Of a DNA stretch of 64,000 bases, positions 19,156-54,084 are shown in pieces. A program made the position numbers and the translations under genes. Location of the stretch: positions 124,060 to 188,059 of the forward strand of contig NZ_MWWW01000005.1 in NCBI RefSeq assembly GCF_002259745.1. Reading direction: 5' to 3'. A model generated the notes under the pieces. It worked only from the letters and a program-made list of their open reading frames with translations. It was not told the origin of the DNA and did not search any database. The stretch is from Bifidobacterium myosotis (lineage in GTDB: Bacteria > Actinomycetota > Actinomycetes > Actinomycetales > Bifidobacteriaceae). Positions within the stretch are counted from its first letter, which is position 1. Each line of letters opens with the position of its first letter.

Positions 19156-19207
19156 TGCCACCACCGGCCCTTTCCACCGTCTTCCATGACGGCATTGGTT
19201 GATCCGA

Positions 19208-19243: not shown

Positions 19244-19246
19244 CGA

Positions 19247-19319: not shown

Positions 19320-19330
19320 ACTGGGTCATC

Positions 19331-19354
19331 CCTCCAATAAGGGACTTTTTCATC
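19331..19354 (+). terminator. Weak terminator-like hairpin on the plus strand
   Basis: TCCCT and AGGGA flank six bases and are followed by CTTTTTC on the plus strand. It lies between the solo repeat and the cas3 end. It would terminate a plus-strand (anti-cas) transcript, which is the only hint that such a transcript exists. Confidence 0.25.
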
Positions 19355-19375
19355 ATGACCGCAAGCCCCGACGCC

Positions 19376-32898: not shown

Positions 32899-32949
32899 TC
32901 CGTATCTTTCCAATCACGGTATTTCTAGATGGGTGCAATAAGAAATGCG

Positions 32950-33488: not shown

Positions 33489-33506
33489 TGACATCTAGAG
33501 ATGACT
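33489..33506. promoter_or_regulatory. Regulon palindrome site 1 (TGACATCT-AG-AGATGACT)
   Basis: One of six 18-bp dyads matching TGWCATCT-N2-RGATGACA, with one mismatch at the last base. It lies about 160 bases upstream of the locus-1 peptide start. Confidence 0.7.
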
Positions 33507-33576
33507 CGCAATACGTCAATCGGAGAAGGGGAAAGCTACAACTAGCTGCTTCTATAGCCAACCTAATACTGATTAT

Positions 33577-33612
33577 GTTTGTTTTTGTCATCTCAAGATG
33601 ACAAAAACAAAC
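33577..33612. promoter_or_regulatory. Regulon palindrome site 2 with extended arms
   Basis: The core TGTCATCT-CA-AGATGACA (33586-33603) sits inside a longer perfect palindrome with GTTTGTTTT/AAAACAAAC ends. It lies about 250 bases upstream of the locus-1 peptide and 100 upstream of integrase 2. Confidence 0.75.
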
Positions 33613-33666
33613 AACGGCTCTTTCAGCATATTCACTTACACTGTTCCTTGGTTTCAATCTCCCCAC

Positions 33667-33692
33667 AAGGCGCACGCAGGGTGCGCCTTTTC
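33667..33692 (+). terminator. Terminator just upstream of integrase 2
   Basis: AAGGCGCAC pairs with GTGCGCCTT around GCAGG and runs into TTTC. It would stop read-through into integrase 2 from upstream or act as an attenuator in its leader. Confidence 0.6.
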
Positions 33693-33711
33693 GCGATCGA
33701 GGGAGATCAAT

Positions 33712-34989
33712 ATGCCGAAAATCAGGCATTCCCATGGAAACCATCCGCAGAAGCCGCCGCGAAGCAAGTGGGGAACCGTGCTGGCCCGTTATGACAGAAC
33801 CGGCATGCTAATCGCATGGCAGGTTCGATATCCGAATCCATTAGAACCCGGCAAACGCGTCCAACGCCAGTTCAAGCCGGATCAGGAGCTCGAAGCCCGT
33901 AGATGGCTGGAAGCCGAAAAGTACCTTGTCAGCCTCCATCGTAACGGCATCGCCGAATGGGTTCATCCAACAGAACGAAGCCGACGAAAAGCCGTCGTGG
34001 AAAAGAGCCAGACACAACGCAATATGTTGTTCCGCGACTATGTGATGCGATGGGCCGAGGAATACCGGCTGCCCGACGGCAATGGCATCGCCGGTGGCAC
34101 GCGTCGCAATCTTTATCTGGACATTGGCCATTTTCTGCCAAGTCTTGGAGACCTGCCGCTTAACGAGATCACTCCGTCCATCATCAAGGCTTGGTATGAT
34201 GCGCCTCACCCGGAAGGCCGGTGGGCATTCCGACGCTCATGCATGCGGCTGAAGGCGGTACTTGAGTCAGCCACCCGTGGCGGATTGGATGGTTCGGAGC
34301 CATTGCTGTCCTTCAATCCCTTCATATTCCATATTCCGCCAGCGCCACAGCCCGCCCGCATCAACGTGCCGCCGGTGACTCCTTCCGAATTGATCCTGCT
34401 GGCGAATGCCATGCCCGATTACACCAGACTGTCCGTATTCCTCTCGACTTTAGTGGGTGGTCTGCGATGTGGCGAACTATGTGGGCTGCAGGTGCAAGAC
34501 ATCGATCTGAACAGGCAGATACTTCACGTCCGGCATTCCGTGAATCGCGGTGACGCTGACAGAGGGGATCTCCAATTCGGTAAGACGAAAACGGAATCCA
34601 GCATCAGGAACGTACACATCCCGGATACGCTGATTTCTCTTATTCGACAGCACCTTTCTGATTACTGCGATCTGACCCGACCGGATTCGCCGGTGTTCGT
34701 GCCCAAACGTGCAAGAATCATGTCCCAGACAACGCTGGACGGCCAGTTCGCCAAAGCCCGGTTGAAAGCAGGACGCCCTGATCTGACATTCCAAGCATTA
34801 CGAGCCAGCCATGCAACATTACTCATGATTCAGGGTGGAACGTTGCGGGAAGTCATGAATCAATTGGGACACGTCAGTGAGAAGGTTGCCATCCGGTACT
34901 ACCAGCTCACCGTCGCCTCACATCAGAGTCAAGTGGTTGACGAGCTTGCCGAATCATTTATGAGCGGTATCCAGCGGCGTGAATTCTAG
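33712..34989 (+). CDS. Tyrosine integrase 2
   Basis: A 425-residue recombinase with the same layout as integrase 1 and long shared stretches (GGTRRNLYLDIGHF, DAPHPEG-WAFRRSCMRLKA, GGLRCGELCGLQ, VSEKVAI-YYQ). The catalytic R, K (KTKTESS), R, H (LGHVS) and Y (RYYQLT) are present. The HxxR position is again Q-A-L-R. The start at MPKIRHSH follows GAGGGAGA. The DNA is lower in GC than that of integrase 1, so the two are old paralogues or separate arrivals. Confidence 0.92.
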   Translation: MPKIRHSHGNHPQKPPRSKWGTVLARYDRTGMLIAWQVRYPNPLEPGKRVQRQFKPDQELEARRWLEAEKYLVSLHRNGIAEWVHPTERSRRKAVVEKSQTQRNMLFRDYVMRWAEEYRLPDGNGIAGGTRRNLYLDIGHFLPSLGDLPLNEITPSIIKAWYDAPHPEGRWAFRRSCMRLKAVLESATRGGLDGSEPLLSFNPFIFHIPPAPQPARINVPPVTPSELILLANAMPDYTRLSVFLSTLVGGLRCGELCGLQVQDIDLNRQILHVRHSVNRGDADRGDLQFGKTKTESSIRNVHIPDTLISLIRQHLSDYCDLTRPDSPVFVPKRARIMSQTTLDGQFAKARLKAGRPDLTFQALRASHATLLMIQGGTLREVMNQLGHVSEKVAIRYYQLTVASHQSQVVDELAESFMSGIQRREF

Positions 34990-35035
34990 ACCAAAGTGAT
35001 GCACCATCGCGATACGTGACTCACCTTCGTATAGG

Positions 35036-35076
35036 AAATGCCGTGAGGGATCTGAATCTGGTCCCTCACGGCATTT
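35036..35076. terminator. Bidirectional terminator between integrase 2 and GH20
   Basis: AAATGCCGTGAGGGA and TCCCTCACGGCATTT (15-base perfect arms, 11-base loop) lie between two convergent genes. The A- and T-rich ends serve both directions. Confidence 0.8.
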
Positions 35077-35112
35077 CGGTATCTGACTGGTCGAAGTCTC
35101 ACAATCGCAGCA

Positions 35113-37134
35113 TCAGACGGATTGGAAGCGCAGATAGTCCGTTAACTCCCACACCGTATCTTGCAGCCGACGGAGTTCGGAGTCTCGGCTGAGAGTACGC
35201 CATTGCGCCGCATACGCCTCCATCCAGATCTCCAATGCTTCGGCAAGGTTCACCGCGTCGTCATGCTGAATCGCCTCACCCGATTGCACAGTGCCAATGA
35301 CCCCGGTCTCGGACGCGAGTCGGAGGCCAACTCGGTTCAGAAGTCGCTGCCCCTCGATGGCTACGCGAAATGCAGCGGCATCCCCGTTGGTCCAAGGTCC
35401 TGAGGTCGCGGCGATTGCGGAGATTCGACGGGCACTGGTCTGTAGAAGGTGATCTGCGGTTTCGCCGAGCGTGACGTGATGTTTCAGATAGCGGAACAGC
35501 ATCCGTCGGGATTCCGCAAGTGACGGTGCCCGGCTTCCGTCCTGAAGGGCGCGGACCACGTCGTCCGGTCGTTCGTCTTCCGGCAGCAGTCCTGGGATGG
35601 TTTGCAGGACCCCGGTGTTGACGCCGCCCCGTCCGTCATCAAGTTCCAGCCATGTGATCAGATGGTTCCATTCGAAGCTGGCCGCATGACTGGCATGGGT
35701 GAGGATATCAAGCAGTTCGCCGCTGGCGTCGCGGTATTCGAGTCGGGAGATGCGGCGGAGCATGTCGGCCTCGTCGGGGATGCGTCCGGGGTTCCATGCC
35801 TCCTGCGCGCCGATGATCATTCCGGGGATGGCCATGCGCGGGTCGTTGACGTGGCCGAGGTCGCCCCAGTCGGTGACGAGCATGCCCTGCGCGCCGTATT
35901 GCGTGCCGTAGCGGGCCATGCGGGTGATGTTGTTCCAGGCGTCGTCGATGCGCGGCAGGAGCGCGTTCCAGCACCATACGGCGGGGCATACGATCTGCGT
36001 GGCGCCGGATCGGGCGACGGTGCGGATCTTCTCGTCGGTGACTTGCGGGTCGTACTGCCAGTTGAGCAGGGTGACGGTTTCGGGGAGTCTTTTCAGGATT
36101 TCGGGGTGTTCGAGGGTGATGTCGCCCCACATCATCGGCTTTTTGCCCTGGGTTTCGAGGTGGCGGCACAGGCGGGTGACGTAGTCGGCGTACATGGCGG
36201 CGACGCCGACCTTCTCGGCGAGGGGTTTGGAGCGGCCTTTGCCGAGGTCGAAGGTCTCGTCGGCGCAGATGTTGAATTTGTCGGAGCGGAACAATTGCAG
36301 GTAGTCGTCGATGAGCTTCGTGGACAGGGTGAAGGCGCGGTCGTCGCTGATGTTCAACGTGTGGTGGCGCATGCGGTCGATGAACCCGAACGGCTCGTCG
36401 GCGCTCTCGGGGAATTCGCCGAGGTCGCGCAGGCTTTGCGTGCGCAGGGCCATGTAGAGGTGGCCGAACGTGGAGACGGACGGCACGAGCTCGATGCCTC
36501 GCTCGGTGCAGTAGTCGTCGAATTCGAGGATGTCGCGCGGGGTGAGCGGGCTGGAGCCGCGCCAGGTCTCGCTCATCCCGTCGAAGGCGAAGGTGTGTTC
36601 GACGTAGAGCTGGAGCTGGTTGTACTTGTAGAGGCAGAGTTTGTCGGCCCAGGTCTTGAGCCAGTCGAGGGTGGGGACGCGCCCGCGGGTGACGTCGAGG
36701 TAGTAGCCGCGCGTTTCGAAGGCGGGCTGGTCCTCGATGTGCAGGCAGGGCAGGGCGGCGCCGCATTGGCGGATGAGCTGGCGCAGGGTCTGCACGCCGT
36801 TGCGCACGCCCTCGAAGTCCGCACCCCTGACGGCCACGCCGTCCTTGGTGATGTCGAGCGTGTACGCGCCGGACGGACGCGCATGGAGATCGTCCAGTGT
36901 CGTCAATGTGATGAATCCAGGCCAACGGTCACCCGTGGCGATGTCCCATTCCAATCCCGTAACCGCACGGATGTCGTCGGCAAGTTGTGTTGCGAGTACC
37001 TGCCGTTCGTCTCCGAACGCACGTGGCTCGTTGACTCGGCCGCACATCGGCAGCAGTGAGACGCCCGCCTTGTGTTGTACGGTCTGCGGCGTGGGAATGA
37101 TGGTCCATCCCTTCAGGGTTGCTTGATCGCTCAT
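35113..37134 (-). CDS. Intracellular GH20 beta-N-acetylhexosaminidase
   Basis: A 673-residue glycosidase. An N-terminal GH20b-like domain (1-140) is followed by a TIM barrel with YYLDVTRGRVPTLDWLK, LYKYNQLQLYVEHTFAF and the catalytic pair D292-E293 in FNICADETFDLG, which uses substrate-assisted hydrolysis of terminal GlcNAc/GalNAc. There is no signal peptide, so it acts on imported oligosaccharides. The upstream binding protein and two permeases point the same way, and the ROK kinase nearby could phosphorylate the freed amino sugar. AAGGACTT precedes the ATG. Confidence 0.88.
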   Translation of the reverse strand: MSDQATLKGWTIIPTPQTVQHKAGVSLLPMCGRVNEPRAFGDERQVLATQLADDIRAVTGLEWDIATGDRWPGFITLTTLDDLHARPSGAYTLDITKDGVAVRGADFEGVRNGVQTLRQLIRQCGAALPCLHIEDQPAFETRGYYLDVTRGRVPTLDWLKTWADKLCLYKYNQLQLYVEHTFAFDGMSETWRGSSPLTPRDILEFDDYCTERGIELVPSVSTFGHLYMALRTQSLRDLGEFPESADEPFGFIDRMRHHTLNISDDRAFTLSTKLIDDYLQLFRSDKFNICADETFDLGKGRSKPLAEKVGVAAMYADYVTRLCRHLETQGKKPMMWGDITLEHPEILKRLPETVTLLNWQYDPQVTDEKIRTVARSGATQIVCPAVWCWNALLPRIDDAWNNITRMARYGTQYGAQGMLVTDWGDLGHVNDPRMAIPGMIIGAQEAWNPGRIPDEADMLRRISRLEYRDASGELLDILTHASHAASFEWNHLITWLELDDGRGGVNTGVLQTIPGLLPEDERPDDVVRALQDGSRAPSLAESRRMLFRYLKHHVTLGETADHLLQTSARRISAIAATSGPWTNGDAAAFRVAIEGQRLLNRVGLRLASETGVIGTVQSGEAIQHDDAVNLAEALEIWMEAYAAQWRTLSRDSELRRLQDTVWELTDYLRFQSV

Positions 37135-37266
37135 GGAAGTCCTTTCTCAGTGGTTCACCTTTGATTGCGGTATATTGCGTTTTGGGTTCCGAGATGACGC
37201 GCGGCGCCGGAACCACTCGCGGAAATGGTCCCGGCGCCGCACGCATTGTTCATCGCTCCGTTTGTG

Positions 37267-38145
37267 TTATTTGACGGCTCCAGTGGTGACGCCCTTCATG
37301 ATGTTGCGTTGAATGATCATGAAGAAGATCACGACGGGCAGGGAGAAGATGACGGATGCGGCCATCTGTCCGCCGAAGTCGGTGCCCATGGTGGGCGTGG
37401 AGAACGAGGAGAGCCATACGGGCAGCGTGTACTTGGACTGGTCCTTCATGAACGTGTAGGCGGTCATGTAGTCGTTCCAGGCGTTGATGAACGCGAACAC
37501 GGACGTGGACACGATGCCGGGCGCGGCCAGGGGGAAGGTGATCTTCCACAGGATCTGCCAGTCGTTGGCTCCCTCGACGGCCGCGGACTCGAAGATGTCC
37601 TTCGGGATGTTCAGGAAGAAGCCGCGCATGTTCCAGATCGCGAACGGCAGGACCATGGCGATGTACGCGAGGATCAGGCCGCTGTACTTGTTGAGCAGGC
37701 CGAACTGGTTGAAGATGATGAACTGCGGGATGATGCCGCCCGAGGTCATCTGGATGGCCAGCACGAACACCATGATCGCCTTGCGGCCGCGGAACCGGTA
37801 GAGGGTCAGGGCCGCGCACGCGAAGAACGCGAGGACGATCGACAGGACGATCGACACGGCGGTCACGATCACGCTGTTCTTCAGGTTCGTCAGAAACGAG
37901 GTCTGGGTGACGGCCACCATGAAGTTGTCGATCGACAGTTTCGTGGGCCAGAACACGGGCGTTGCGGTCATGATCTGGTTGCGCGGCTTGATCGACGTGA
38001 CGAACATCCAGTAGACCGGGAAGATCCACACGATGCAGAACGCGACGGCCAATACGATCGTGCCGATGCGGCGCAGCTCGGCCGATGCGCTGCGCTTGGC
38101 GCGCGGCGCGATGCCGTGGTTTGCGGTTGCCATATTCATGGTCAC
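37267..38145 (-). CDS. Sugar ABC transporter permease, MalG/AraQ type
   Basis: A 292-residue inner-membrane subunit of six helices with the conserved EAA loop (ESAAVEGANDWQILWKITFPLAAPG). The GTG start overlaps the other permease stop; ATG two codons later is possible. It works with the MalF-type permease and the lipoprotein upstream. No dedicated ATPase is nearby, so a shared MsiK-type ATPase elsewhere is likely, as is common in bifidobacteria. Confidence 0.92.
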   Translation of the reverse strand: MTMNMATANHGIAPRAKRSASAELRRIGTIVLAVAFCIVWIFPVYWMFVTSIKPRNQIMTATPVFWPTKLSIDNFMVAVTQTSFLTNLKNSVIVTAVSIVLSIVLAFFACAALTLYRFRGRKAIMVFVLAIQMTSGGIIPQFIIFNQFGLLNKYSGLILAYIAMVLPFAIWNMRGFFLNIPKDIFESAAVEGANDWQILWKITFPLAAPGIVSTSVFAFINAWNDYMTAYTFMKDQSKYTLPVWLSSFSTPTMGTDFGGQMAASVIFSLPVVIFFMIIQRNIMKGVTTGAVK

Positions 38146-39077
38146 AGGTCCTCCCCGGATTTGAGCAGGTATCGGATGTACACGCTCGTCAGGGCGAGCA
38201 GGATGAGCGTGACCAGCACGCTCGCGGCGGCGCCGGTGCCGATGTCGAAGGACACGAACGCTTTCTTGTAGGTGAAGATGCCGATCGTCGCGGTCGTCTC
38301 GCGGGGTCCTCCCTGGGAGACGAGCCAGATCTGGTTGAACACGTTGAAGTCCCAGATCACCGACAGCATCGTGATGACCATCAGGCTCGGTTTGATCAGC
38401 GGCACGGTGATCTGCCAGTAGCAGCGCAGCTTCGAGCAGCCGTCCAATTGGGCCGCCTCAAGGCAGGACTTGTCCACCTGCGTGGTCGCCGCGTACAGGT
38501 TGATCGCGATGTACGGGACGGCCTGCCAGACGACCAGCAGCCAGATCTCCAGGAACGCGAGCCACGTGTTGTCGGTCCACGACAGGTTCGTCACGTCGCC
38601 GAACAGGCGGGTCTGGGTCAGCAGCCAGTTGATCACGCCGTACCCCGGCTGGAACAGCCACTTCCACACCACCGACGAGGCGACGTTCGGCATGGCCCAT
38701 GCGAAGATCAGCACGAATGTGACCAGCCAGCGCATCACCGGCCCCAGTTTGGTCATCAGCTGGGCCACGCCCATGCCGATCAGCACGCTGCCGGCCACGA
38801 GGGCGGCCGCGAACCCGAACGTGCGGGCCAGCGACTTGTAGAACTCCGGGTCGGCCAGCACGTTCTCGTACTGGTCGAACCCGACGATGTTGAACGAGCC
38901 TGTGAACAGGGTCTTCTGGTTGAAGTCCGTGAACGACGTGAAGACCAGGAAGACCAACGGCACCACGACCAGCGCGACGATGATCACGCCGGCGGGAGTC
39001 AGCAGCCACAGGGGCGTCAGATTGCGACGCCGTTTCACTACGGGGACGGCGGCAGCCGTCGATTGCGCATTGCTCAT
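38142..39077 (-). CDS. Sugar ABC transporter permease, MalF/UgpA type
   Basis: A 311-residue permease whose EAA loop reads KSCLEAAQLDGCSKLRCYWQITVPLIKP. I chose MSNAQSTAAAV as start, ten bases after the binding-protein stop; longer frames read back into that gene. It pairs with the MalG-type subunit. Confidence 0.92.
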   Translation of the reverse strand: MSNAQSTAAAVPVVKRRRNLTPLWLLTPAGVIIVALVVVPLVFLVFTSFTDFNQKTLFTGSFNIVGFDQYENVLADPEFYKSLARTFGFAAALVAGSVLIGMGVAQLMTKLGPVMRWLVTFVLIFAWAMPNVASSVVWKWLFQPGYGVINWLLTQTRLFGDVTNLSWTDNTWLAFLEIWLLVVWQAVPYIAINLYAATTQVDKSCLEAAQLDGCSKLRCYWQITVPLIKPSLMVITMLSVIWDFNVFNQIWLVSQGGPRETTATIGIFTYKKAFVSFDIGTGAAASVLVTLILLALTSVYIRYLLKSGEDL

Positions 39078-39087
39078 CACGCTTCCC

Positions 39088-40398: not shown

Positions 40399-40793
40399 GA
40401 TGGTTTCCTTTTCCTGGAATGCCTGCCCGACGCCGTCGTTCGGAGGAATGGCGCGACGTGCCGCTGCGCACGACGGTCCCGGGTCCGTATCCGCCCGCGC
40501 TGCCGTGCGCGGGCGATGCCGCTACGGACGCCGTTGCCGACGTCCGTAGCGATACCGAGGAACATGACGCCACACCACTTCTGGGCATCGCGCCGCAGCA
40601 AGACCGGATATTTTGTTAGCAAGCCTTGCGTAATTCCTGTAGTTGGTTTCAACCTCCTTGAGAGCCAAGGATATGACGCCTTAACCTTTTTGCAAGTCAG
40701 TCGAACAAAATAATGGATGTGGTGCACCCCGTCTGTTGGAGATTGGGGAATCTGGTTTCGGCGCGCCGATGGTCCGTCGGCACCGGGGTCTGG
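40399..40793. promoter_or_regulatory. Regulatory gap upstream of the GH20 transport operon
   Basis: There is no gene in these 395 bases. The region carries GCTACGGACG/CGTCCGTAGC (40521-40530, 40541-40550) and a second GC-rich hairpin just before it. At about 40690 the minus strand reads TTTTGTTCGACTGAC. TGTTCGAC also occurs before the second binding-protein gene (near 43135), so it is a candidate ROK-regulator site. Confidence 0.4.
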
Positions 40794-41723: not shown

Positions 41724-41854
41724 GACGATCTCCGTTCCCGAGGGCGGACTCCTGTTTCGTCCGCCCGCCATTATGTTCGGAATCCTTACATATTGGATTC
41801 GGGAAGCGATGATACACCACGCCACGCGCGCTTGGCGGCGGGACGCACGTGGCG

Positions 41855-42970: not shown

Positions 42971-43203
42971 GGGAGCCCTCCTCGGGTGAGACGATTGCGG
43001 AAATGCGGAATCACATTATCGGGACGGACATCCCGGCGTCATCCTCGAACGGCTTTCAGAATAACACCCATCAGGGGACTGACAATATGAAAACCCCGGC
43101 ACTTTGACAAGTTTCCCATCTCTGTACATAATCATGTTCGACATCCAAACAAAATAGTTGCGACATACGGCCAAAGACGGTCAAGCACGGAAAGAAGACC
43201 AAC

Positions 43204-44529: not shown

Positions 44530-44586
44530 TTTGATTCCCTGATTTCAGGAGATAGCTATAGCGCTGGCTATGACTTATCTTGTTCG

Positions 44587-44627
44587 TTTAGTATTCCTCC
44601 CGTTATTATAACGGGAGGAATACTAAA
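44587..44627. terminator. Strong bidirectional terminator
   Basis: 20-base perfect arms around a single centre base (TAGTATTCCTCCCGTTAT on the left). The hairpin overlaps the stop codon of the ABC ATPase on the minus strand and also ends the binding-protein gene. Confidence 0.85.
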
Positions 44628-45297
44628 GTTGGATGCTCCAGTCGCATGATTCGACTACGTGGTCGGAGTGGGTGGCGATGATGACGATGCCGCCGTTGCC
44701 GGCCATGTCGCGCAGGGTGTGGATGACCATGTCGGCGTTGTCGTGGTCGAGAGCACCGGTAGGTTCGTCGGCGAGAATGACTTCAGGTTGTTTGACGATG
44801 AGGCGCGCCAGTGCGACGCGTTGTTGTTCACCGCCGGAGAGCTGGTAGACCAGCTCCCTTTGGCGGTCGGCCAGACCGACCCGTTGCAGGGCGTGGGAGA
44901 TGGTGGTCTTCCTTACCCGTGACGGGAGGTGTGGCAGGGCGACGTTCAGGTTTTCCTCGATGGTGGCGTTGTCGATGAGCGCGTAGTCCTGGAACAGATA
45001 GCCCAGGGTGTGTTTGCGGAACATTCGCGCGCCGTGCGCGTGGTATCGGGTGATGTCTCTCCCGTTCACTTCTATCGCGCCGCCGTCCGGCTTCTCCAAG
45101 AGGCCGATGCAGTTCAGCAGTGTGCTCTTGCCGGATCCGGATGGTCCGGTGAGAGCGATCATCTGTCCCGAATGGGCCGAGAATCCGAGGTCCTTCCACA
45201 GCAGGTGATCGCCGAAGGATTTGGACAGGCCCCGGACGTCAAGCCGTGTGCTCACCGGCGTGCGATCGGGCATGTGGCCGGATAATGCGGTGGTCAT
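44623..45297 (-). CDS. Lactococcin-972-operon ABC ATPase (locus 2)
   Basis: A 224-residue LolD-like ATPase with Walker [41 protein letters not shown] and THSDH. It is the last gene of the three-gene bacteriocin operon and follows the membrane protein by three bases. It should energise that protein for export or producer immunity. Confidence 0.92.
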
Positions 45298-45300
45298 CGT

Positions 45301-47364
45301 TTACTCCTCCCTAGCATGGTTTCGGACGTTGCCGCGCACGTATGCGGCGGTGGACAGCAGGCAGACCGCGAGACTTGTCATGGCGATCAGGACGGCGATG
45401 AGCGGCTGATACCCGTCGAGCAGCAGCGGATTGTTCTGAGCGTACGAGACGGTGGACCGGCGCGCGGCCAGAACGGCCTGCGACACGAACCATATGGACG
45501 GAATGATCGCCAGTATCGATTCGACGATGACTAGGCTCAGATGGGTTCTCGCGAAGGACCATCCGTGGATGTACCGGGCGAAGATGGTCTGGGCTCGCTC
45601 GCGGACCCTGATTCGGGCGATGGCCACGGCCGAGGCGATGAGGACGACGGCCGACATCATGACGTTGTACCCGTGGACGACCAGATCCGATCTGAGCTGC
45701 GCGTAATGCGTCGCGGCATTCTGCCCGGCATCGCTTACGGCAAGGATGAAGTCCTCCAGACCCGCCTGCCTTGAGGACGTGATCGCGTACTGCGCGTCAT
45801 CCAGCAGTGCATCGCCCTGGCTGGCATACGCCGCGTAATCGTCGAAGGACAACAGTCCGCTGCCGTTGTCGACCACAACAATCAGCGCGTCATCGAACAA
45901 GGTGGGCGTGTCGGGCAGGGCTGACCCGTAGCCGAATAGCCGCTGGCCCCGCTCGCCGCGCACATAGTCGATCTCGGGAACCGGAACGCCGTAGGCCGAC
46001 GCATGGGATCGCGCCCAGCTGTCGATCGCTTTCTCGTACGCTTTCACGGCCGCCGCGTCCGCATCATACGGGATCACCACCTTCACCGCCTTGGAGCCGG
46101 ATGTCAGGCGACGCCCCTTGTCATCCCTGACCGTCTGGTGTCGCAGATAGTTGCCATTGACCAGCAGCACCGTGCTGGACGCTGTCTCCCCGTCGCCCTC
46201 AGTGGGCGCCATGAACCGCAGGTCGTCCTCATGGGCCAGAATCATCCGCCCCTCGTCTTCGGCGTGTTCCAGCCATTCGCCGGTCCTGCGACTGTACGCG
46301 TCCTGCTCGTCCGTCGACATGTTCGGATTGAGATGCACCTGCGCCACATCGCCGGCGCCCCGCCACGCCTCCTGGGCCTGCCACTGGTTGCGCATATTCC
46401 CCACGGCGGTGAACAACAACGTCACCGACCATATGGTGATGAATATCGCCGGAATGCGCACGCAGTACACCGCGATGGAAGGCAGTCTGCGGGGTAGCCG
46501 CCCCTTGACCGCGGACAACAGGGGCTGCGCGGCCGCGATTATGAATCCCACTCCATAGGCGATTGCCAGACCCACGCATATGGTTAGGAAGATCGCGGCC
46601 GAGAGCATGCCGAACAGGCCCCACTGGGCCCCATGGTTGTGCGCTGCCACCAGAGAGCAAGCCACAATGCTGATAACGCATGCCCCCAACATGCAGGAAA
46701 CCGCATTGGCCTTGACATCCCGGGCCACCATCATCAACGGGCCTGAACCTTGAAGCCGCTGCACCGCGTATCCCTTCGCGTTCATCAGGGAGAAACCGCC
46801 CGCCAACGTCGCACACAACAGCAGCACGACGACCAGTCCCACCCCGACGGGCCTCGACATGACCCATTGCGCATACGAACCGACGAAACTCGTCTTGACA
46901 AGGACCCGGTACCCCTGGGACTGCAGTTTCTGCTGCAGGTCGACGGCCGAAGCGGCGGGCCCGTCGAACACGTAATACGTTCCCCGCGGATCGGAAGTGG
47001 CCAACTCATCCATCCGGCCGACTACAGTCCGCATCGAGACGTTGAACGACGGATACCCGTGCCCGATCCACGAAGCGGCGTCACCGGCAGGATTGCCGAC
47101 CGCGACATACAAGTGTCTAGCACCACCGGGATCCCGCACATCGGCGACGCTTTTGACGATATTGACCCTGTCCGCCAGCGCCACCTCGGATATCACACCG
47201 ACCGTCGCCTCGCTCCTGACCTGCGGTGACGGCCCCGATACCTGCACAGTGGCCCGTACCATAAGAGGCCCCGACAGATCCAGCGCGTTCAACAGCAGAA
47301 ACGAACCCAACATTGCGGCAAACGCCGCAATCCACACCGCCAGACGAATGGACCCGCTGCGCAT
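45301..47364 (-). CDS. Bacteriocin-associated integral membrane protein (locus 2)
   Basis: A 687-residue protein of the lactococcin-972 immunity/transport type. Helix 1 is at 10-28 (VWIAAFAAMLGSFLLLNAL), an outer domain follows, then four central helices (VGLVVVLLLCATLAGGFSLM; CMLGACVISIVACSLVAAH; FLTICVGLAIAYGVGFIIAA; FITIWSVTLLFTAVG), a second outer domain and a C-terminal FtsX-like block (VVLIASAVAIARIRVRERA). It looks like a fusion of the two locus-1 membrane proteins. GAGGAGG precedes MRSGSIR, which sets the start. Confidence 0.82.
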   Translation of the reverse strand: MRSGSIRLAVWIAAFAAMLGSFLLLNALDLSGPLMVRATVQVSGPSPQVRSEATVGVISEVALADRVNIVKSVADVRDPGGARHLYVAVGNPAGDAASWIGHGYPSFNVSMRTVVGRMDELATSDPRGTYYVFDGPAASAVDLQQKLQSQGYRVLVKTSFVGSYAQWVMSRPVGVGLVVVLLLCATLAGGFSLMNAKGYAVQRLQGSGPLMMVARDVKANAVSCMLGACVISIVACSLVAAHNHGAQWGLFGMLSAAIFLTICVGLAIAYGVGFIIAAAQPLLSAVKGRLPRRLPSIAVYCVRIPAIFITIWSVTLLFTAVGNMRNQWQAQEAWRGAGDVAQVHLNPNMSTDEQDAYSRRTGEWLEHAEDEGRMILAHEDDLRFMAPTEGDGETASSTVLLVNGNYLRHQTVRDDKGRRLTSGSKAVKVVIPYDADAAAVKAYEKAIDSWARSHASAYGVPVPEIDYVRGERGQRLFGYGSALPDTPTLFDDALIVVVDNGSGLLSFDDYAAYASQGDALLDDAQYAITSSRQAGLEDFILAVSDAGQNAATHYAQLRSDLVVHGYNVMMSAVVLIASAVAIARIRVRERAQTIFARYIHGWSFARTHLSLVIVESILAIIPSIWFVSQAVLAARRSTVSYAQNNPLLLDGYQPLIAVLIAMTSLAVCLLSTAAYVRGNVRNHAREE

Positions 47365-47427
47365 GGCACCCTCCTCAAACTCATTAAAGGTGATGCCGTT
47401 TTGCGGCATCACCTAATCAATTCTCGA

Positions 47428-47745
47428 TTAGCAATATCTCCAATATGCCTGATCGATTCGAAGGGGATTGCTGTCATAAGCAGTCGCGGTAGACCACTGC
47501 TTCTTCACTGCGCATTCTGACCGGACAAGTCCGACATCACCGGTTACACTGGAACCGTGAAGAGCAGATGGATGACGATAGTTTGACCAGTTATAGCCTT
47601 CACCGAAATCCATGATTCCGTAGTTCCAAGTTCCACCACCGGCAGGTACGACAGCCGCCATTGCTGTCCCGGTGGCTCCCAGAGATAGTCCTGCCGCTAG
47701 AACGATAGCAGCCATTGCTTTGACACGTCGATGTTTATCGGTCAT
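47428..47745 (-). CDS. Lactococcin 972 family bacteriocin precursor (locus 2)
   Basis: A 105-residue precursor. The signal peptide runs to about residue 31 (VKAMAAIVLAAGLSLGATGT, then AMA). The mature part has the family pattern GGTWNYGIMDFGEGYNWSNY, H-x-SALHGSSVTGD and a C-terminal YWRYC. Lactococcin 972 blocks septum formation by binding lipid II in sensitive Gram-positives. Two Cys in the mature part could form a disulfide. GAAAGGG precedes the ATG. Regulon palindromes lie about 100 and 130 bases upstream. Confidence 0.9.
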   Translation of the reverse strand: MTDKHRRVKAMAAIVLAAGLSLGATGTAMAAVVPAGGGTWNYGIMDFGEGYNWSNYRHPSALHGSSVTGDVGLVRSECAVKKQWSTATAYDSNPLRIDQAYWRYC

Positions 47746-47840
47746 CTTTGACCCTTTCTATAGTAGGCCGAATTCTTTTCGACTCCGTAAGAACTATTGT
47801 CCTAAGCGAGAATGCGACGGGCAATGACGAGCAAGCTCGT

Positions 47841-47858
47841 TGACATCTGGAGATGACA
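47841..47858. promoter_or_regulatory. Regulon palindrome site 3 (TGACATCT-GG-AGATGACA)
   Basis: A perfect match to the 18-bp dyad, 96 bases upstream of the lactococcin-972 gene. A degenerate second copy with an intact AGATGACA half lies at 47874-47891, 33 bases away (about three helix turns), so two regulator dimers could bind on one face. Confidence 0.75.
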
Positions 47859-47960
47859 TGAAGCCCCCAATCTCGCTATCTTGAGATGACAAATGGCAGC
47901 CACAACTTCATCTTGTGCATGGAAATTCTTTATGCGAGGGTCGGTGTCCTAGTTGTTGCG

Positions 47961-48386
47961 TCATTGATTCTTTCGTGCAGAGCTAGATCTGGTGATGATG
48001 TATTGTCCGATGGCATCAGGTTCGCCGATGGGTGTGCCGTTGACTTCGACCCAGGCGTGTGCGCGAAAGGGACGATCGGTGAATCCGGTGCACCATGTGA
48101 CGGATCGGTGAGATATGCGGCATGCCGCCGCTGTGGAGAGAGACCGAAGCAGACAACCCTGCTGGCTGCGGCATCTGCGGCTTACCGCACATACGGCGTT
48201 GCGGTAACGCTTCGCCATGTCGGCATCGGCTGGCGGATACCGTTCGGACCACGTTTCAAGCTGACGGCAAAACTCTCCGATTCGTTGTCGTTCCATCTGT
48301 CTTCCGATAATGATGGCAATCAGCGCCACCAGGCGGTCGTGAAAGTTGACTCGTGTGATTGCTTCCGGCTGTAGAGGGATGCTCAT
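47961..48386 (-). CDS. Lasso peptide leader peptidase B2 (transglutaminase-like)
   Basis: A 141-residue cysteine protease of the lasso B2 class that cuts the leader from the precursor. The Cys is in QQGCLLRS (C78), the His in FRAHAWVEV (H110), and the acidic residue in GEPD (about 124). The family ending -HAWVExxGxPI- is clear. It overlaps B1 by four bases (ATGA) and is the last gene of the lasso operon. Confidence 0.85.
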   Translation of the reverse strand: MSIPLQPEAITRVNFHDRLVALIAIIIGRQMERQRIGEFCRQLETWSERYPPADADMAKRYRNAVCAVSRRCRSQQGCLLRSLSTAAACRISHRSVTWCTGFTDRPFRAHAWVEVNGTPIGEPDAIGQYIITRSSSARKNQ

Positions 48387-48655
48387 AAACGCACGTGCTT
48401 CCCCATATCGGCGAGAAATCGTTCCGTATCCCGGACGATGATTTGTCTGTCAGCCCGATATTCTTCGGCGATTTCATTCGTGCAATCCTCGACGGTTTTG
48501 CCGTGCATCAGACCGTCGAGGATGATTCGGCCTATTTCGTTGATCTGCAGGTATTCGCCGGTGTCGTTGACGAATACGATTGCCCCTCCCTCTTTGGGAT
48601 ACAGAGATATCTGGTCCTTCAGGCTGGTGTTCGCCATCGTGTCATCGGTTTGCAT
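48383..48655 (-). CDS. Lasso peptide B1 / PqqD-like recognition element
   Basis: A 90-residue PqqD-family RiPP recognition element (GGAIVFVNDTGEYLQINEIG, then ILDGLMHGKTVEDCTNEIAE) that grips the precursor leader and delivers it to B2 and C. The ATG overlaps the cyclase end by 14 bases and has AAGGTGG at the right spacing. Confidence 0.88.
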   Translation of the reverse strand: MQTDDTMANTSLKDQISLYPKEGGAIVFVNDTGEYLQINEIGRIILDGLMHGKTVEDCTNEIAEEYRADRQIIVRDTERFLADMGKHVRL

Positions 48656-50234
48656 GTCTTAGCCACCTTTCCACTGCCGCGACTCGTTGCATTTCGAACA
48701 GAAACGTGATGTCAGGCATCGGCATGGAAGCTCGACGCCGTATGGCTGGCATATCGATCAATCCTTCTTCGTCCAGCTCTCCACCGGTGATTGAGTTGAG
48801 CAGCGAGTCCTTCGAGCGTTGCCAGGCCAGATACAGTGAATATGAGTGATCGCCTTTGACGGGACGCCGGAATATCGTTTCGGGGACTATGCCTTTGAGT
48901 GCCCGGTACAATACGGCTTTGTGTAGATTTCCTTCGGTGCGTGCACTGATTGGGGCGCATAGCGCATAGTCCGCGATCCCATGGTCCAGGTAGGGGGAGC
49001 GGAACGTTATGTCGTCAGAGGCGAACGTCCGATTAACCTGATTGAGCATTCGTGCCTGCATTGACAGAGAATAGAGCGCCTGATGACGGCTTCGGTCGGG
49101 GCTCAATGGCCGAATGTCGGCGTGTTTGAATTGTGATTCAATAGCGCTATATAGGATATCCCTGGCTTTTGTGGTCAGGAATTCGGGAATGAGTATGACA
49201 TCGTGCCATCCACAAGGCGAGGAGCGATGGTTATGACCTTGTTCCGCGTCCAGGAACGATGACCGTAATTCCTCATACAGATCGGTGTTATCGGTCAGAT
49301 CGAGAATTGCCTGATGGGGTGGGATTCGGTAATCGGCGCTGTATTGTCTTCGGATGTCTCGTAGTCGCAGTGGGTGTTCCCGCAGGCAGCTCCAAGATGA
49401 GGATGGCATAGATGCGAACAGCTCGTCTCCTCCGAAACCTGTGACATGGATACGGCTTGTGCCTGCCTCCATTTCGGAGATTCGGCTGAGATAGCCTTCG
49501 ATATCACTCCAGTAGATCGGTTCTTCAGGTATCTCGTTGTTGGGGTATTCGGCTGCGGGTTCGAATGATCTGTTTCCATCCACGACTCGGCCGACTTTGA
49601 TGAGTGGCATCCGAACGTCCTCGGAGATTCGCTCGGCCCATTGGGAATCCTGATTCATTGGATCGTCGGGTGTTTCATGATACAGGGGCATACGAACCCC
49701 CTCGCTGGCGAAGATGTATGTGATGGCGGCGGAATCCACTCCTCCGGACACATCGGCGGATAGTAGTGCCTCATTGCGCCACTCATCCGCGATCGTCAGG
49801 AAACTGCTCCTTAGCGATGCCAGAATTGCGCCGTTTGAAACATGTTTTATGGGTGAAGGTTCCGCTCTCGTATATCGCGGCCTATTGGATTTGTCGAGGT
49901 GCAGTATGGTTGCGACAGGTATGGAATGTACGTTCCTCCATGGGGATTTGTCCCCTCGTAGGCTGTCAGGGAGCGAAGGCAGCAGATCCATGACAATGCG
50001 TTCTAGGTCAAGATCGGCGTTCGTGATGCTTGCAAGTCGGGAGGCGCTGTCCGACAGGAGCACTTCATCTTCGGAGACGATCCAGAACATGCGATCGCCA
50101 CTCAGCAGAGGAACTTGGACGCATGTTCCCTCGTCATTGATGCTGATGGAGGCGGGAAGCTTCGAACAGTCCGTTGGCTTCCCGCCGCGGACAATCACGG
50201 TACGGTTTGGGTTCTTATACGTAAACGGCATCAC
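48642..50234 (-). CDS. Lasso peptide macrocyclase C (asparagine-synthetase-like)
   Basis: A 530-residue ATP-dependent cyclase that adenylates the ring Asp/Glu and joins it to the core N-terminus. It has a glutaminase-like N-terminal half without catalytic Cys2, and the PP-loop LSADVSGGVDSAA (SGGVDS at 163-168) in the C-terminal half, followed by FGGDELFA. The start MMPFTYKNPN is typical in place and length. It begins about 50 bases after the precursor gene. Confidence 0.9.
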   Translation of the reverse strand: MMPFTYKNPNRTVIVRGGKPTDCSKLPASISINDEGTCVQVPLLSGDRMFWIVSEDEVLLSDSASRLASITNADLDLERIVMDLLPSLPDSLRGDKSPWRNVHSIPVATILHLDKSNRPRYTRAEPSPIKHVSNGAILASLRSSFLTIADEWRNEALLSADVSGGVDSAAITYIFASEGVRMPLYHETPDDPMNQDSQWAERISEDVRMPLIKVGRVVDGNRSFEPAAEYPNNEIPEEPIYWSDIEGYLSRISEMEAGTSRIHVTGFGGDELFASMPSSSWSCLREHPLRLRDIRRQYSADYRIPPHQAILDLTDNTDLYEELRSSFLDAEQGHNHRSSPCGWHDVILIPEFLTTKARDILYSAIESQFKHADIRPLSPDRSRHQALYSLSMQARMLNQVNRTFASDDITFRSPYLDHGIADYALCAPISARTEGNLHKAVLYRALKGIVPETIFRRPVKGDHSYSLYLAWQRSKDSLLNSITGGELDEEGLIDMPAIRRRASMPMPDITFLFEMQRVAAVERWLRHANR

Positions 50235-50285
50235 GTTTCCCTATCCTGATACAGCTAGGGATCATCAATATATGCAGGGTTTCGG

Positions 50286-50414
50286 TCAGTTCGATCCCCA
50301 AGGGAACGGGGCCTTGGCGCCGCCAACATCGACATAGTTGCCGAACCATACGCCATTGGTTGCTTCCTTGAATGATGCGATGACCTCAACGGCAGGAGGC
50401 ACATAATCCTTCAT
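50286..50414 (-). CDS. Lasso peptide precursor A, 42 residues
   Basis: Leader of 20 residues with the YxxP recognition motif (KDYVPPAVEV) and the hallmark Thr at -2 (KEATN before the core). Predicted core is residues 21-42: it starts GVWFGNYVD, so the N-terminal Gly1 would be joined to Asp9 in a nine-residue ring. A 13-residue tail follows, with Phe and Trp as possible plugs, ending WGSN. There is no Cys, so it would be a class II lasso peptide. GAGGAGAACGAAG precedes the ATG. The regulon palindrome lies 105 bases upstream. Confidence 0.85.
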   Translation of the reverse strand: MKDYVPPAVEVIASFKEATNGVWFGNYVDVGGAKAPFPWGSN

Positions 50415-50504
50415 CTTCGTTCTCCTCGTGTTCTGGATATGGAACCGGATTGCATGTCGGTGCATGCCATTCCAGTTAACATGATTTGGATAGTACATCC
50501 AAGA

Positions 50505-50550
50505 ATGTGTTTGGTGTTTGTCATCTTCGGATGACAAACACCAAACACAT
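50505..50550. promoter_or_regulatory. Regulon palindrome site 4 with 21-bp arms and TTCG loop
   Basis: The core TGTCATCT-TC-GGATGACA (50519-50536) sits inside a perfect 21-base-arm hairpin closed by C(TTCG)G. It lies between the ABC ATPase stop and the lasso precursor, so it may be an operator for the precursor promoter, the ATPase terminator, or both. Confidence 0.8.
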
Positions 50551-50586
50551 GGATCTATGGGGAATCGGACGATCTGCTGGCGTTTT

Positions 50587-51270
50587 TCAGTCTTCCTTCC
50601 AGAGTTGGCCGCGGGAACCCTCTTTTACCACGGTGCCTTTATCCAGTACCACAACATCATCGGTAATCGGCTTCAGCTTGCCGTCCGGTTCGGATGCGAT
50701 GAGCACCGCAACGCCACGATTTGTCTGCTTCCGTATCTGCTCGCAGATCCAATTCGTGCCCGATTGATCGAGTGCCTGGAGCGGTTCATCTACGATCAGG
50801 GCTTTGGGATTGGGAAGCAGAGCTATGGCGAATCGCATTTTGAGGACATCGATTGGAGCGAGATCGTGGAGCTTGACGGTGAGAAGATTCTGCAGTTCGG
50901 TCATGTGAATAATCCCGTCAAGAAGCGAATCAGACGTTCCGGCCCAGAACGCCTTCCAACGAAGATAGGTTCCGACCGAGTAATACGGGGATAGTGAAAT
51001 GGCTTCGGGCATTGCATTCACAACGTTTTTGGGTATACGGGATGTGCCACAGGGTTTGCCACAGGTGTATATGCATCCGGAATCCGGGATATCCAGTCCC
51101 AACAGCATCCGGAGAACAGTTGTTTTGCCGGCGTCATGTGGCCCCATCAGAACGGTGACTCGACCTGCATAGGCGGCAAATGTGATCCCATGCAATTCGC
51201 GACCGGCATGATTGAATGAGACGTTCTCAAACGCAATGATGGGTGAAGCCGAATCGGGCAGCTGGCACAT
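50587..51270 (-). CDS. Lasso-cluster ABC ATPase with degenerate signature
   Basis: A 227-residue ATPase. Walker A is GPHDAGKTT (instead of GPNGAGKTT) and Walker B is ALIVDEPLQALD. The LSGGQ signature is eroded to LAPIDVLKMRFAIAL, and the switch His is absent (VLIASEPDGKL). No permease is visible in the cluster. It may give self-immunity or serve an ATPase-poor transporter. I chose MCQLPDSA after GAAAGGAAAACG. Its own copy of the regulon palindrome is about 195 bases upstream. Confidence 0.75.
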   Translation of the reverse strand: MCQLPDSASPIIAFENVSFNHAGRELHGITFAAYAGRVTVLMGPHDAGKTTVLRMLLGLDIPDSGCIYTCGKPCGTSRIPKNVVNAMPEAISLSPYYSVGTYLRWKAFWAGTSDSLLDGIIHMTELQNLLTVKLHDLAPIDVLKMRFAIALLPNPKALIVDEPLQALDQSGTNWICEQIRKQTNRGVAVLIASEPDGKLKPITDDVVVLDKGTVVKEGSRGQLWKED

Positions 51271-51451
51271 CGTTTTCCTTTCTTCGATTGACCCGAGCCG
51301 CAATAATCGAAGTCCCCCCCCCCTAACGGTTTTTGGATACTGACCTATCTTAGGGGATGGCAAAAGTGACGTGATATATGCTAGGTTTGTTCCGTTCGCT
51401 TGAGCGACGGACATAGACAGTTAACCAGTTTGCTCTATTCTCCAATAAAAG

Positions 51452-51493
51452 GATTGTGGTGTTTGTCATCTGAAGATGACAAACACCACAATC
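51452..51493. promoter_or_regulatory. Regulon palindrome site 5 with 20-bp arms
   Basis: The core TGTCATCT-GA-AGATGACA (51464-51481) has outer arms GATTGTGGTGTT and their complement. On the minus strand it is followed by CTTTTATT, so it is also a good terminator for the response-regulator gene that ends 23 bases before it. Confidence 0.8.
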
Positions 51494-51515
51494 GTTGAGA
51501 TGAATATCGTGATTT

Positions 51516-52223
51516 TTATGCTGGTTTGCTGCCTGTTATTTGGTCCAGCCCCGATTGATACCAAGCTATGGCGATTTGGACTCGGTCCCGCATGTGCATT
51601 CTGGCCAATATGCGGCTTACCGTGCGTCGTACCGATGTCGTTTCGATGAATAGGCGCTCCGCGATTTCCTGATTGGACAAGCCTGCCGCCACGAGTTCCG
51701 CGACTTCATGTTCCCGCTTGGAAAGTCCGTCGAATAGGCTTCGTAGCAGCTTGATGCGGGTGTTGTCCGATATGGGCCGAACCCCGCGATTGAGTACTTC
51801 ACCGGTGATTCTCGGTGTCAATACCGCATCTCCGTTATGCACGGCGTGTACGGCGTCACGTAGCTGTTTGGGGGTCGCATCCTTGAGCAGGAATCCGGAT
51901 GCCCCTCGCGCCAATCCGTCGAAGGCGTAATCGTCCTCATCGTATGTGGTCAGGATCAGTATCTGGATTTGGGGGAATTGCTCCTTGATGATGCCCGTCG
52001 CCTCTATGCCGTCCATGACGGGCATGCGCACGTCCATCAGAATCACGTCAGGCAGTTGCTGCGGTGATTGCCGTAGGAACTCGATTGCTTGGGCGCCGTC
52101 CACGGCCTGGGAGCTGACGATGATGTTCGGATCGTTGTTCAGCATCATCATGAAGCCGGTGCGCGCCCCTCGCATGTCATCGACCAGCATGACCTTGATG
52201 ATGTCGTCTCTTGCATCCTTCAT
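51516..52223 (-). CDS. NarL/LuxR-type response regulator
   Basis: A 235-residue regulator. The receiver domain (8-125) has D15-D16, phospho-acceptor D64 (VILMDVRMP), T in ILTTYDED and K in FLLKDA. The C-terminal LuxR-type HTH lies near 165-225 (LSKREHEVAELVAAGLSNQEIAERLFIE). It pairs with the kinase 16 bases upstream. Its own operon and the bacteriocin and lasso genes carry a shared palindrome, so it is the likely DNA-binding protein for that site. Confidence 0.93.
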   Translation of the reverse strand: MKDARDDIIKVMLVDDMRGARTGFMMMLNNDPNIIVSSQAVDGAQAIEFLRQSPQQLPDVILMDVRMPVMDGIEATGIIKEQFPQIQILILTTYDEDDYAFDGLARGASGFLLKDATPKQLRDAVHAVHNGDAVLTPRITGEVLNRGVRPISDNTRIKLLRSLFDGLSKREHEVAELVAAGLSNQEIAERLFIETTSVRRTVSRILARMHMRDRVQIAIAWYQSGLDQITGSKPA

Positions 52224-52239
52224 GGTTCTTCCGTTTCTT

Positions 52240-53565
52240 TCAGGGGATTAGTGCCTTGACCGCCCAGCCATTGCCGTATGGCCCATAGGACAGGGTGCCG
52301 CCCATTTTCGCAAGGCGTTGGGAGAGCCGTTGCAGTCCGGTTCCACCTGTCGGCTTCCTGCTTTGACCGGATGCCTCGCCGGTGGTGTCGTGTCCGGAGA
52401 CGTGTCCATCGTTGCGGATCGTGATTGCTGTTCCGCCATCACGGTAATGATTCCAGGAGACGGCAATGCGGGTCAGTCCCGCGCCGTGCCGAAGGGCATT
52501 GGTCAGTGCCTCGCGAGTGACGGCGAAGCATAAATCCGAACGGCGGGGGTCCTCGACGCGTCTTCCCGTTTCGGTGAACACGACGATGATTCCGGTTGAG
52601 CGTATGTGTTCCAGTACGGGTCTGATATCGTCCCAATCCCGTAAACGCAGGATGTCATCCTGATTCACTGGGTCAAGACCGACCTGTTCCAAAGACGGCT
52701 GCGATTCCTCTTCATTGAAGACCTTTAGTATACGGCGCGTATCGGTCAGACTGTCCTTCGCAATCGATGTGATCTCTGCTAAGACATCAGCCAGTTGCGA
52801 AGCGGAATAGCCGCCATTCCTTATGCAGTCCTCACCTCCCTGCGATAACGCGATAATCGAGGTCAATCCATGACCGACACTGTCATGCAGCTCGTTGGCC
52901 ATGCGAAGGCGCCGTTCCGTACGATTCTTTTCCTCCGCCAGCATTGCGGTCTTTCGCCGTGCCTCGGACAGCAGCCTATTCGACGTTCGCCGTTCCCACG
53001 CTATGGACAACAGTGAGGATGCGATGCCGGCCAAAGCGACGGAGTACAGTAACGCCAAATATTGAGGCTGCAGATAGGAGGGATAGATGTATTGCATTGC
53101 GATCATGCAGATCATGGCCAGATCGCACATGGCCTGAACATACAAAGGAAGCCGAATGCACAGATAAAGCACCAAGATAAGCGCGACCTGCGTGTATGAG
53201 TGCAGACCAACGCCGAACAGGACGCCCAGAGAGAGCTCAATGAATTCCAAGGCCAGCAACGCCACGGGGCTTCTGGACCTTAACGTCACGTTTATGGCTC
53301 CCAAAACTAGCAGTATAAGGAAGTACCATATTCCCGCTCCCTCGTTGAGGAACCGGATAAACGAATATCCTGTGCCGATTGCCATCCGCTCTTTCACATA
53401 ATCGCGGATCAGCACGCCCATCGTGCCAACGATGCAGATCAGAGTCGTCGTGAAACGAAGCAGGCGTTCCCCTTTGAGCTGACGAAGCCATAGGATCAAT
53501 CGATCCCGCGGGGTGACGGCTAACGTTTGTCTCCCATCTGATGACTTACCCCGGCGTGAGCCCAT
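52240..53565 (-). CDS. Two-component sensor histidine kinase (HisKA_3)
   Basis: A 441-residue NarX-like kinase with about six membrane helices (residues 35-190), no large outer domain, a short coiled linker (ERRTSNRLLSEARRKTAMLA), phospho-acceptor His in MANELHDSVGHGL and a C-terminal ATPase with TREALTNALRHG and TGGTGLQRLSQRL. Sensors of this shape often respond to peptides or membrane stress. The start is MGSRRGK or nine codons upstream. Confidence 0.92.
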   Translation of the reverse strand: MGSRRGKSSDGRQTLAVTPRDRLILWLRQLKGERLLRFTTTLICIVGTMGVLIRDYVKERMAIGTGYSFIRFLNEGAGIWYFLILLVLGAINVTLRSRSPVALLALEFIELSLGVLFGVGLHSYTQVALILVLYLCIRLPLYVQAMCDLAMICMIAMQYIYPSYLQPQYLALLYSVALAGIASSLLSIAWERRTSNRLLSEARRKTAMLAEEKNRTERRLRMANELHDSVGHGLTSIIALSQGGEDCIRNGGYSASQLADVLAEITSIAKDSLTDTRRILKVFNEEESQPSLEQVGLDPVNQDDILRLRDWDDIRPVLEHIRSTGIIVVFTETGRRVEDPRRSDLCFAVTREALTNALRHGAGLTRIAVSWNHYRDGGTAITIRNDGHVSGHDTTGEASGQSRKPTGGTGLQRLSQRLAKMGGTLSYGPYGNGWAVKALIP

Positions 53566-54084
53566 AATGAGATGGTTCCTCGCAACCTGCACCTTACGCC
53601 TTCTTCGTTGTCCGAGAATACAGCTTTCCCATTATCTACGATTTGAGGCTCGCATGTCCATGACTGGGCTCCTGTTTGACATCTACGGATGACAGTAACT
53701 TATCGCGGACTTCCCTCTCCGCTTGCGGAGAGAATGCTCCAGGCGGGGCTGTTCGACATACTCTCCGCAATCGGCGCGGGAACGCGGCCCCGGTCCATGC
53801 GCTGCGCGCATGACCGTGCTGTCTGGCCGCTCGCATGCTCGCGGCGGTGGGCCGCGCGGAATCTGACGAGGGGTTTGCGGCCACCACCAGCATGCCATGC
53901 GCTCCGTCTGCGTTCCCTGCGCCGTGTCCCGCGCCGCTCCCGTGCCTGCGCTGCGACGGCGGACCAGCATGCCGTCTTCGCTACTGCCCGGATCGTCGCG
54001 GTCCACGCCTCCGGTCTCTCCGCCTGCGCGCATGGCAGGCGGGTGGTGTCCGAAATGGAAACCACACGGAAAGGACCGATGGAC
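53566..54084. other. Gap between the two-component genes and the mobile element
   Basis: This stretch holds the regulon palindrome at 53677-53694 and, beyond it, about 390 bases of GC-rich sequence in which I see no supported gene. The GC jump here marks the edge of the ParB/relaxase element. Confidence 0.4.
53677..53694. promoter_or_regulatory. Regulon palindrome site 6 (TGACATCT-AC-GGATGACA)
   Basis: A perfect match to the shared dyad, about 110 bases upstream of the kinase/response-regulator operon. It predicts autoregulation. Confidence 0.75.

Follow-up and report, generated by a model that had tools for sequence, protein, structure and literature searches.

The subject of this analysis is an 18-bp palindrome, TGTCATCT-N2-AGATGACA, that recurs in a 64,000-nucleotide stretch of Bifidobacterium myosotis DNA (the window). 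Judged from sequence comparisons, it is probably the operator of a NarL-type response regulator encoded at 51516–52223, through which several peptide operons and the regulator's own operon would be controlled as one regulon. The regulator would then govern lactococcin-972-type, lasso and other peptide operons together with the operon for itself and its sensor kinase. If this is right, a single 18-bp motif predicts which peptide operons are jointly deployed in these bifidobacteria.

Both strands of the window were searched with the pattern TGWCATCTNNRGATGACA, allowing up to 3 mismatches, and 100 shuffled sequences served as a control. The search returned 15 rows over the two strands, corresponding to 8 places, against a mean of 1.50 rows and a largest value of 5 after shuffling; 0/100 shuffled sequences reached 15. 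Five places have no mismatch (33586, 47841, 50519, 51464 and 53677). Together with 33489, which has one mismatch, these are the six sites named in a preliminary description of this DNA, and they stand far above the shuffles; the degenerate copy that it reported at 47874 is also present, with 3 mismatches. The eighth place, at 18774 and again with 3 mismatches, looks like a chance match. The geometry of the half-sites is 8-2-8, an inverted repeat with a 2-bp gap, as in the definition of NarL-type operators. A scan of the whole genome (2.94 Mb in 58 contigs; the window is contig C45, 124060–188059), which the preliminary description had called for, found 7 places with 0–1 mismatch, and every one is confined to a single 33-kb stretch (C45 157548–190121, equivalent to window 33489 to 66062). 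The rest of the genome holds one place with 2 mismatches, on a different contig, and all other matches have 3. The earlier statement that there are no copies elsewhere holds inside the window, but a perfect seventh copy lies just beyond it, at window-equivalent 66045–66062.

The sites lie in front of peptide, transport and regulatory genes (coordinates refer to the reverse strand unless noted). Two precede the locus-1 peptide: 33489–33506 at a gap of 161 bp, and 33586–33603 at 258 bp, the latter having 18-bp perfect arms and lying between the peptide gene and an integrase gene on the forward strand. The lactococcin-972-type gene is preceded by 47841–47858 and by the adjoining degenerate site at 47874–47891, with gaps of 95 and 128 bp. 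The site at 50519–50536, whose 22-bp arms contain one mismatch, lies 104 bp before the lasso precursor, and 53677–53694 lies 84 bp before the kinase gene, counted to its first GTG; a promoter-like TGGACA-18-GATAAT is found at 53660–53631. The site at 51464–51481, with 20-bp perfect arms, is 49 bp from a lone ABC ATPase gene, provided that the first ATG is the start. The distance of 90–260 bp first given for these sites was nearly right: measured gaps run from 49 to 258 bp, with those of 49 and 84 bp falling below that range. No -10 element at constant spacing from the site was evident by eye.

Curated family cut-offs are passed by one lactococcin-972-type and one lasso gene, and the remaining peptides are unnamed. 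The 105-aa product of 47428–47745 belongs to the lactococcin 972 family by two models (PF09683, 55.2 against a cut-off of 22; TIGR01653, 34.1 against 32.1), and its ABC ATPase and membrane protein (44623–47412) match TIGR03608 at 229.3 and TIGR01654 at 46.7, both under the cut-offs. The 42-aa lasso precursor at 50286–50414 has a recognizable lasso leader (NF033521, 20.8 against 19), and the B2 (transglutaminase-like, PF13471), B1 (PqqD, PF05402) and C (asparagine synthase, PF00733) enzymes encoded at 47961–50234 likewise score above cut-off, which bears out its identification as a lasso cluster. The original proposal of two bacteriocins is firm for the lactococcin-972-type gene only, because the other, the locus-1 peptide (32950–33327; 125 aa, with an N terminus that is signal-like by eye), matches no Pfam or NCBIfam family and is a putative bacteriocin. 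An ABC ATPase (PF00005) and two putative membrane proteins follow it (30117–32913), neither of the latter with a family match above cut-off. The lone ABC ATPase at 50587–51414, whose true start is possibly further in, also matches PF00005. In the regulator, a receiver domain (PF00072, 2.5e-23) is joined to a LuxR-type helix-turn-helix (GerE, PF00196, 2.2e-13), as in the NarL/FixJ type; its best NCBIfam match is NarL, below that model's cut-off. The sensor histidine kinase (52240–53592) matches HisKA_3 (PF07730, 42.6 against 24), and a match to the ATPase model HATPase_c scores 23.2, below the cut-off of 26.4.

Regulators related to that of the window provide the first line of evidence for the pairing of protein and palindrome. 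Besides nine near-identical copies, there are 31 rows of regulators 50–60% identical to it (class I), 19 of which were used first. A site was scored if it matched at least 13/16 of the palindrome within 7.5 kb of the regulator gene, with scrambled palindromes of the same composition as control. In Bifidobacterium, whose relatives of the regulator with nearby palindromes are 52–60% identical to it, 8 sites were found in 8/19 loci, compared with a mean of 0.58 and a maximum of 5 in 300 scrambles, none of which reached 8; the 8 loci include the near-copies L087/L093 and L105/L106. A control set of 20 NarL-type regulators 39–44% identical to the window's gave 2 sites against 0.54 expected, a number reached by 34/300 scrambles. 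In nine loci the operon head is readable (L097, L098, L100, L104, L105, L106, L130, L133 and L138), and there an 8-2-8 palindrome ends 82–226 bp before the first ABC-kinase-regulator gene; for a paralogue in genome G017 the distance is 82 bp. Outside Bifidobacterium an excess is seen only among the 4 closest regulators (52–56% identical; 2 sites vs 0.15, reached by 5/200 scrambles). The one strong case there is L133 of Acidipropionibacterium, where TGTCATCTCGAGATGACT, a 15/16 match, lies 83 bp before the operon. An apparent enrichment in "other genera" (78 loci with 13 sites in 8 loci, vs 1.4 expected) was discarded, being mostly due to six Bifidobacterium loci, three of them shared with the 19-locus set. 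Among 394 genomes of the class, a close regulator occurs in one, the window's own.

The sites also covary with the protein. Of two basic residues in the recognition helix of class I, the identity of the second goes with base 5 of the half-site, which is A with Arg (23/24 half-sites) and C with Lys (14/14). Over these 19 loci, which include L135 and L139 and in which the window is represented by its consensus, the association was equalled by 1/20000 permutations; in a stricter set of 15 loci the figure was 41/20000.

Sites beyond the window bear on what the motif marks. The seventh copy ends 135 bp before the gene for a protein of 135 aa whose N terminus looks signal-like by eye (window-equivalent 66198–66605; L007 2258–2665), which matches no Pfam or NCBIfam family and is followed by open reading frames (ORFs) without a Pfam match (two were tested) and, further on, by an ABC ATPase (PF00005). 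We consider this a candidate new bacteriocin operon. Because it was invisible when the preliminary description was made, it counts independently in favour of the motif as a marker of peptide operons. Genes of a conjugative element are found here (a relaxase at 58018–59469 on the forward strand, PF03432; a coupling protein, a TraG-type ATPase, ArdA and a ParB-like protein), and the bay that separates the coupling-protein gene from a gene termed 70k is filled, in relatives, by differing peptide modules. In two of three module kinds (window-equivalent 66 kb; L074 site 16207) the genes point away from the coupling-protein gene and the site is on the side of that gene; in the third (L074 site 7201, L083 site 10005) reading begins at the 70k side, where the site is likewise located. 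All three kinds examined carry the site at their own promoter end despite their differing directions, which speaks for promoter operators and against recombination sites at cassette ends.

The genes downstream of relatives' sites were tallied by hand. One site precedes a lactococcin-972-like peptide of 95 aa (PF09683, 32.4 against 22), another a 68-aa peptide of the same kind that scores below cut-off, and others proteins of 127, 174 (DUF5626) and 180 aa with N termini that are signal-like by eye. In G017 a perfect site is followed by a gene for the class III lanthipeptide synthetase LanKC (NF038151, 645.9 against 575), accompanied by a 44-aa ORF and a prolyl-oligopeptidase-family protein; this set lies beyond the lasso operon, in the position held by the lactococcin-972 module in the window. 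The 44-aa ORF (L126 7402–7536) has Ser, Thr and Cys near its C terminus and matches no family, and is a possible lanthipeptide precursor. At L079 15013 and L076 10248 the perfect site lies within an inverted repeat with arms of about 35 bp; the next gene in L079 encodes a ThiF-family enzyme, and that locus is a candidate peptide-modifying cluster. A broader proposal, for and against which we find the case evenly balanced, is that the palindrome serves as a portable bacteriocin operator. Mobile cassettes for three or more chemically unrelated kinds of peptide (lactococcin-972 type, lasso and class III lanthipeptide) would carry it, and newly acquired peptides would come under whichever of two divergent NarL-type families is present in the host or on an element.

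A number of observations weigh against assigning the palindrome to the window regulator. No site of at least 13/16 was found in 11/19 class I loci; in L085, L086, L087 and L137 the operon head is ambiguous or the gap is larger, the L086 site lying inside a called ORF. Seven further class I loci yielded 2 operon-head sites, 1 ambiguous case and 4 without a site; both of the 2 sites obey the base-5 rule, and one is a near-copy of L092. Across the 70 loci outside Bifidobacterium there were 2 sites, vs 1.3 expected, a result reached by 56/200 scrambles, and an Olsenella site (11/16) was recovered under a looser criterion only. The base-5 rule is violated by one half-site in L135; four rows of its table come from looser searches, the helix positions were picked post hoc and the loci are related by descent. 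Moreover, some copies have no evident peptide gene behind them: the next feature at other sites is an insertion sequence (IS) element, a 38-aa ORF, or a gene for an integrase, a small membrane-like protein, a YqcI/YcgG-family protein or an EamA-like protein. Finally, in a comparison set of 112 genomes, the window regulator (at least 97% identical) occurs in 9, all 9 with perfect sites, and is missing from 15 of the 24 genomes that have such sites.

Those 15 genomes direct attention to a second, divergent NarL-type family, F2, defined by the query L068:12058–12723 and a line at 41% identity or more. We think it unlikely, if still a serious alternative, that the sites belong to F2 or are shared, with the window regulator using them partly or not at all. 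All 15 perfect-site genomes without the window regulator have an F2 match, although three of the matches are partial, split or interrupted by an internal stop; five of the 15 (G041, G054, G068, G072 and G075) also have another class I match, at 51–58%, one of these partial and one with a stop. Perfect sites occur in 24/31 genomes with either regulator and in 0/81 others. Among 21 chromosomal F2 loci, several of them mutually close relatives, 19 have a site of at least 13/16 within 7.5 kb, compared with a mean of 0.63 loci and a maximum of 7 in 300 scrambles, and the sites are often TGTCGTC variants. The idea that the sites in G038 and G041 are chance matches was rejected, since an F2 regulator lies about 1 kb away. 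Nonetheless, the 41% line was set after the table had been seen, the genomes are related, and class I loci bear such sites next to their own operons. F2 is only about 27% identical to the window regulator and its recognition helix differs. In the window's own genome, which has seven sites, no F2 match reached 41% (the best is 34%), and the class I regulator is therefore the likely binder there. The initial suggestion that the regulator at 51.5 kb is the natural binder is thus supported for this genome by the sites near related regulators, the control set, the covariation and the 66-kb operon; it does not extend to all relatives, given the 15 genomes that have F2 in its place.

Other functions for the palindrome fare less well. 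It might serve as a parS-like partition site, or as some other site, for the ParB-like protein of the conjugative element (54791–56350, forward strand; PF02195, PF17762). This protein is present at 94% identity or more in 17/112 genomes, 17/17 of which have perfect sites, and in the window the sites surround its gene. We regard this as very unlikely: the sites keep to the promoter end of a module whichever way it points, the palindrome accompanies regulator operons where there is no conjugative element, and with the 17 genomes removed perfect sites are still found in 7/14 genomes that have F2 or the window regulator, vs 0/81 with neither. A parS site would be expected only alongside its cognate ParB, and these 7 genomes have perfect sites without a ParB at that level, although some carry fragments of the element and truncated ParB-like matches (76–78%) occur in G038 and G041. 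Scarcely credible is the view that the palindromes act between tandem operons as intrinsic terminators or RNA hairpins. Arms of 18–35 bp at some sites, varying in sequence from place to place, would suit it, as would the unusually strong predicted folds at 51464, 50519 and 33586 (z −8.9, −8.1 and −6.4) and the scoring of 51464 as a terminator of the regulator operon. However, at 47841 and 53677 the arms are short and the folds ordinary (z 0.12 and −1.76), no gene ends at the long-armed 33586, long arms are linked to gene ends only at p=0.054 (11 against 34 sites), and terminators would not be expected to combine variable arms with a conserved core. Of the five places in 47300–54100, 51464 alone scores as a terminator, for which a G+C-containing hairpin and a following T run are required (a scan that did not cover 33489 and 33586), and Rfam gave no match in 33000–54200. 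A double role as operator and terminator is possible at 51464 and 50519. Homology between elements often stops at or near a palindrome, as it would at sites of recombination or insertion of bacteriocin cassettes; to this explanation we attach next to no weight, since only the promoter end of each of the three module kinds bears a site, whatever its direction, and sites also accompany chromosomal regulator operons.

Under the operator reading, a sensor kinase would respond to a peptide or envelope signal, and the phosphorylated regulator would bind the 8-2-8 inverted repeat as a dimer, as NarL does on 7-2-7 sites, with activation as the presumed outcome. In relatives without the window regulator, the reading of such sites would fall to F2. 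Such an arrangement may let mobile bacteriocin cassettes of differing chemistry be exchanged under one switch. If so, it is a case of regulatory sharing in which two regulators about 27% identical use one kind of operator while peptides are exchanged on a conjugative element, and the motif becomes a probe for new antimicrobial peptides, with several unnamed secreted-looking proteins already behind it.

Regulons of this general form have precedent. The plantaricin (pln) system has LytTR-type regulators and direct repeats. In Lactobacillus plantarum C11, as the published account describes it, an auto-regulated regulator operon governs a transport operon and several operons for bacteriocins by way of common DNA repeats, and the regulators PlnC and PlnD both bind the same repeats (PMC2714321). 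The window resembles that account in having one element before the operon of the regulator itself as well as before several bacteriocin operons, and the relatives resemble it in having two regulators for one kind of repeat. Unlike the system of lactobacilli so described, the repeat here is an 8-2-8 inverted one, the regulator is of the NarL type, the peptides are of unrelated chemistry, and the setting is Bifidobacterium, with the sites on a conjugative element and in its surroundings. On the strength of that account, the principle of a multi-operon bacteriocin regulon is already known; we read the portable regulon on a shared operator as a new variation. For Escherichia coli NarL, excerpts of the source describe two 7-base elements in inverted repeat with 2-bp spacing, bound by a dimer, the 7-2-7 sites being single or in tandem upstream of -35 (PMC7419079). 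The inverted repeat with a 2-bp gap is common to those operators and to the one predicted here from sequence, whereas the sequence and the targets differ, NarL as described there serving the nitrate response. In Bifidobacterium, lantibiotics under two-component control are on record for pseudocin 196 (pscKR) and an earlier cluster (PMC11305057). Like the genes of the window, those bacteriocin genes adjoin a kinase/regulator pair; in the parts of that report at hand each pair controls one cluster, and there is no mention of an operator common to several peptide classes. Among the papers listed in a survey of the literature on lasso and bacteriocin regulation and on elements in Bifidobacterium, no description of this operator was met, and among the matches listed in a literature search by literal sequence, no title names Bifidobacterium or bacteriocins.

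Several features of the surrounding genes deserve mention. A run of ten C residues (G on the coding strand) lies at 51314–51323, between the 51464 operator and the likely start of the lone ATPase, and in near-identical relatives its length is 8 (G016, G037), 9 (G017, G047, G051), 10 (G004), 11 (G067) or 12 (G111). A run of 10 puts the upstream ORF into the reading frame of the ATPase, and slipped-strand on/off switching of this gene is possible. The lasso operon of the window ends at B2 (47961), and in G017 a 590-aa ABC exporter (L126:2725–4497) comes after B2; the window has the lactococcin-972 module in the exporter's place, and an exporter dedicated to the lasso peptide may be missing there. 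The locus-1 module is flanked by two tyrosine integrases, at 27291–28535 and 33712–34989, with about 5 kb between them. Cas3 and a CT1975-like Cas gene at 15651–22573 mark a CRISPR-Cas locus.

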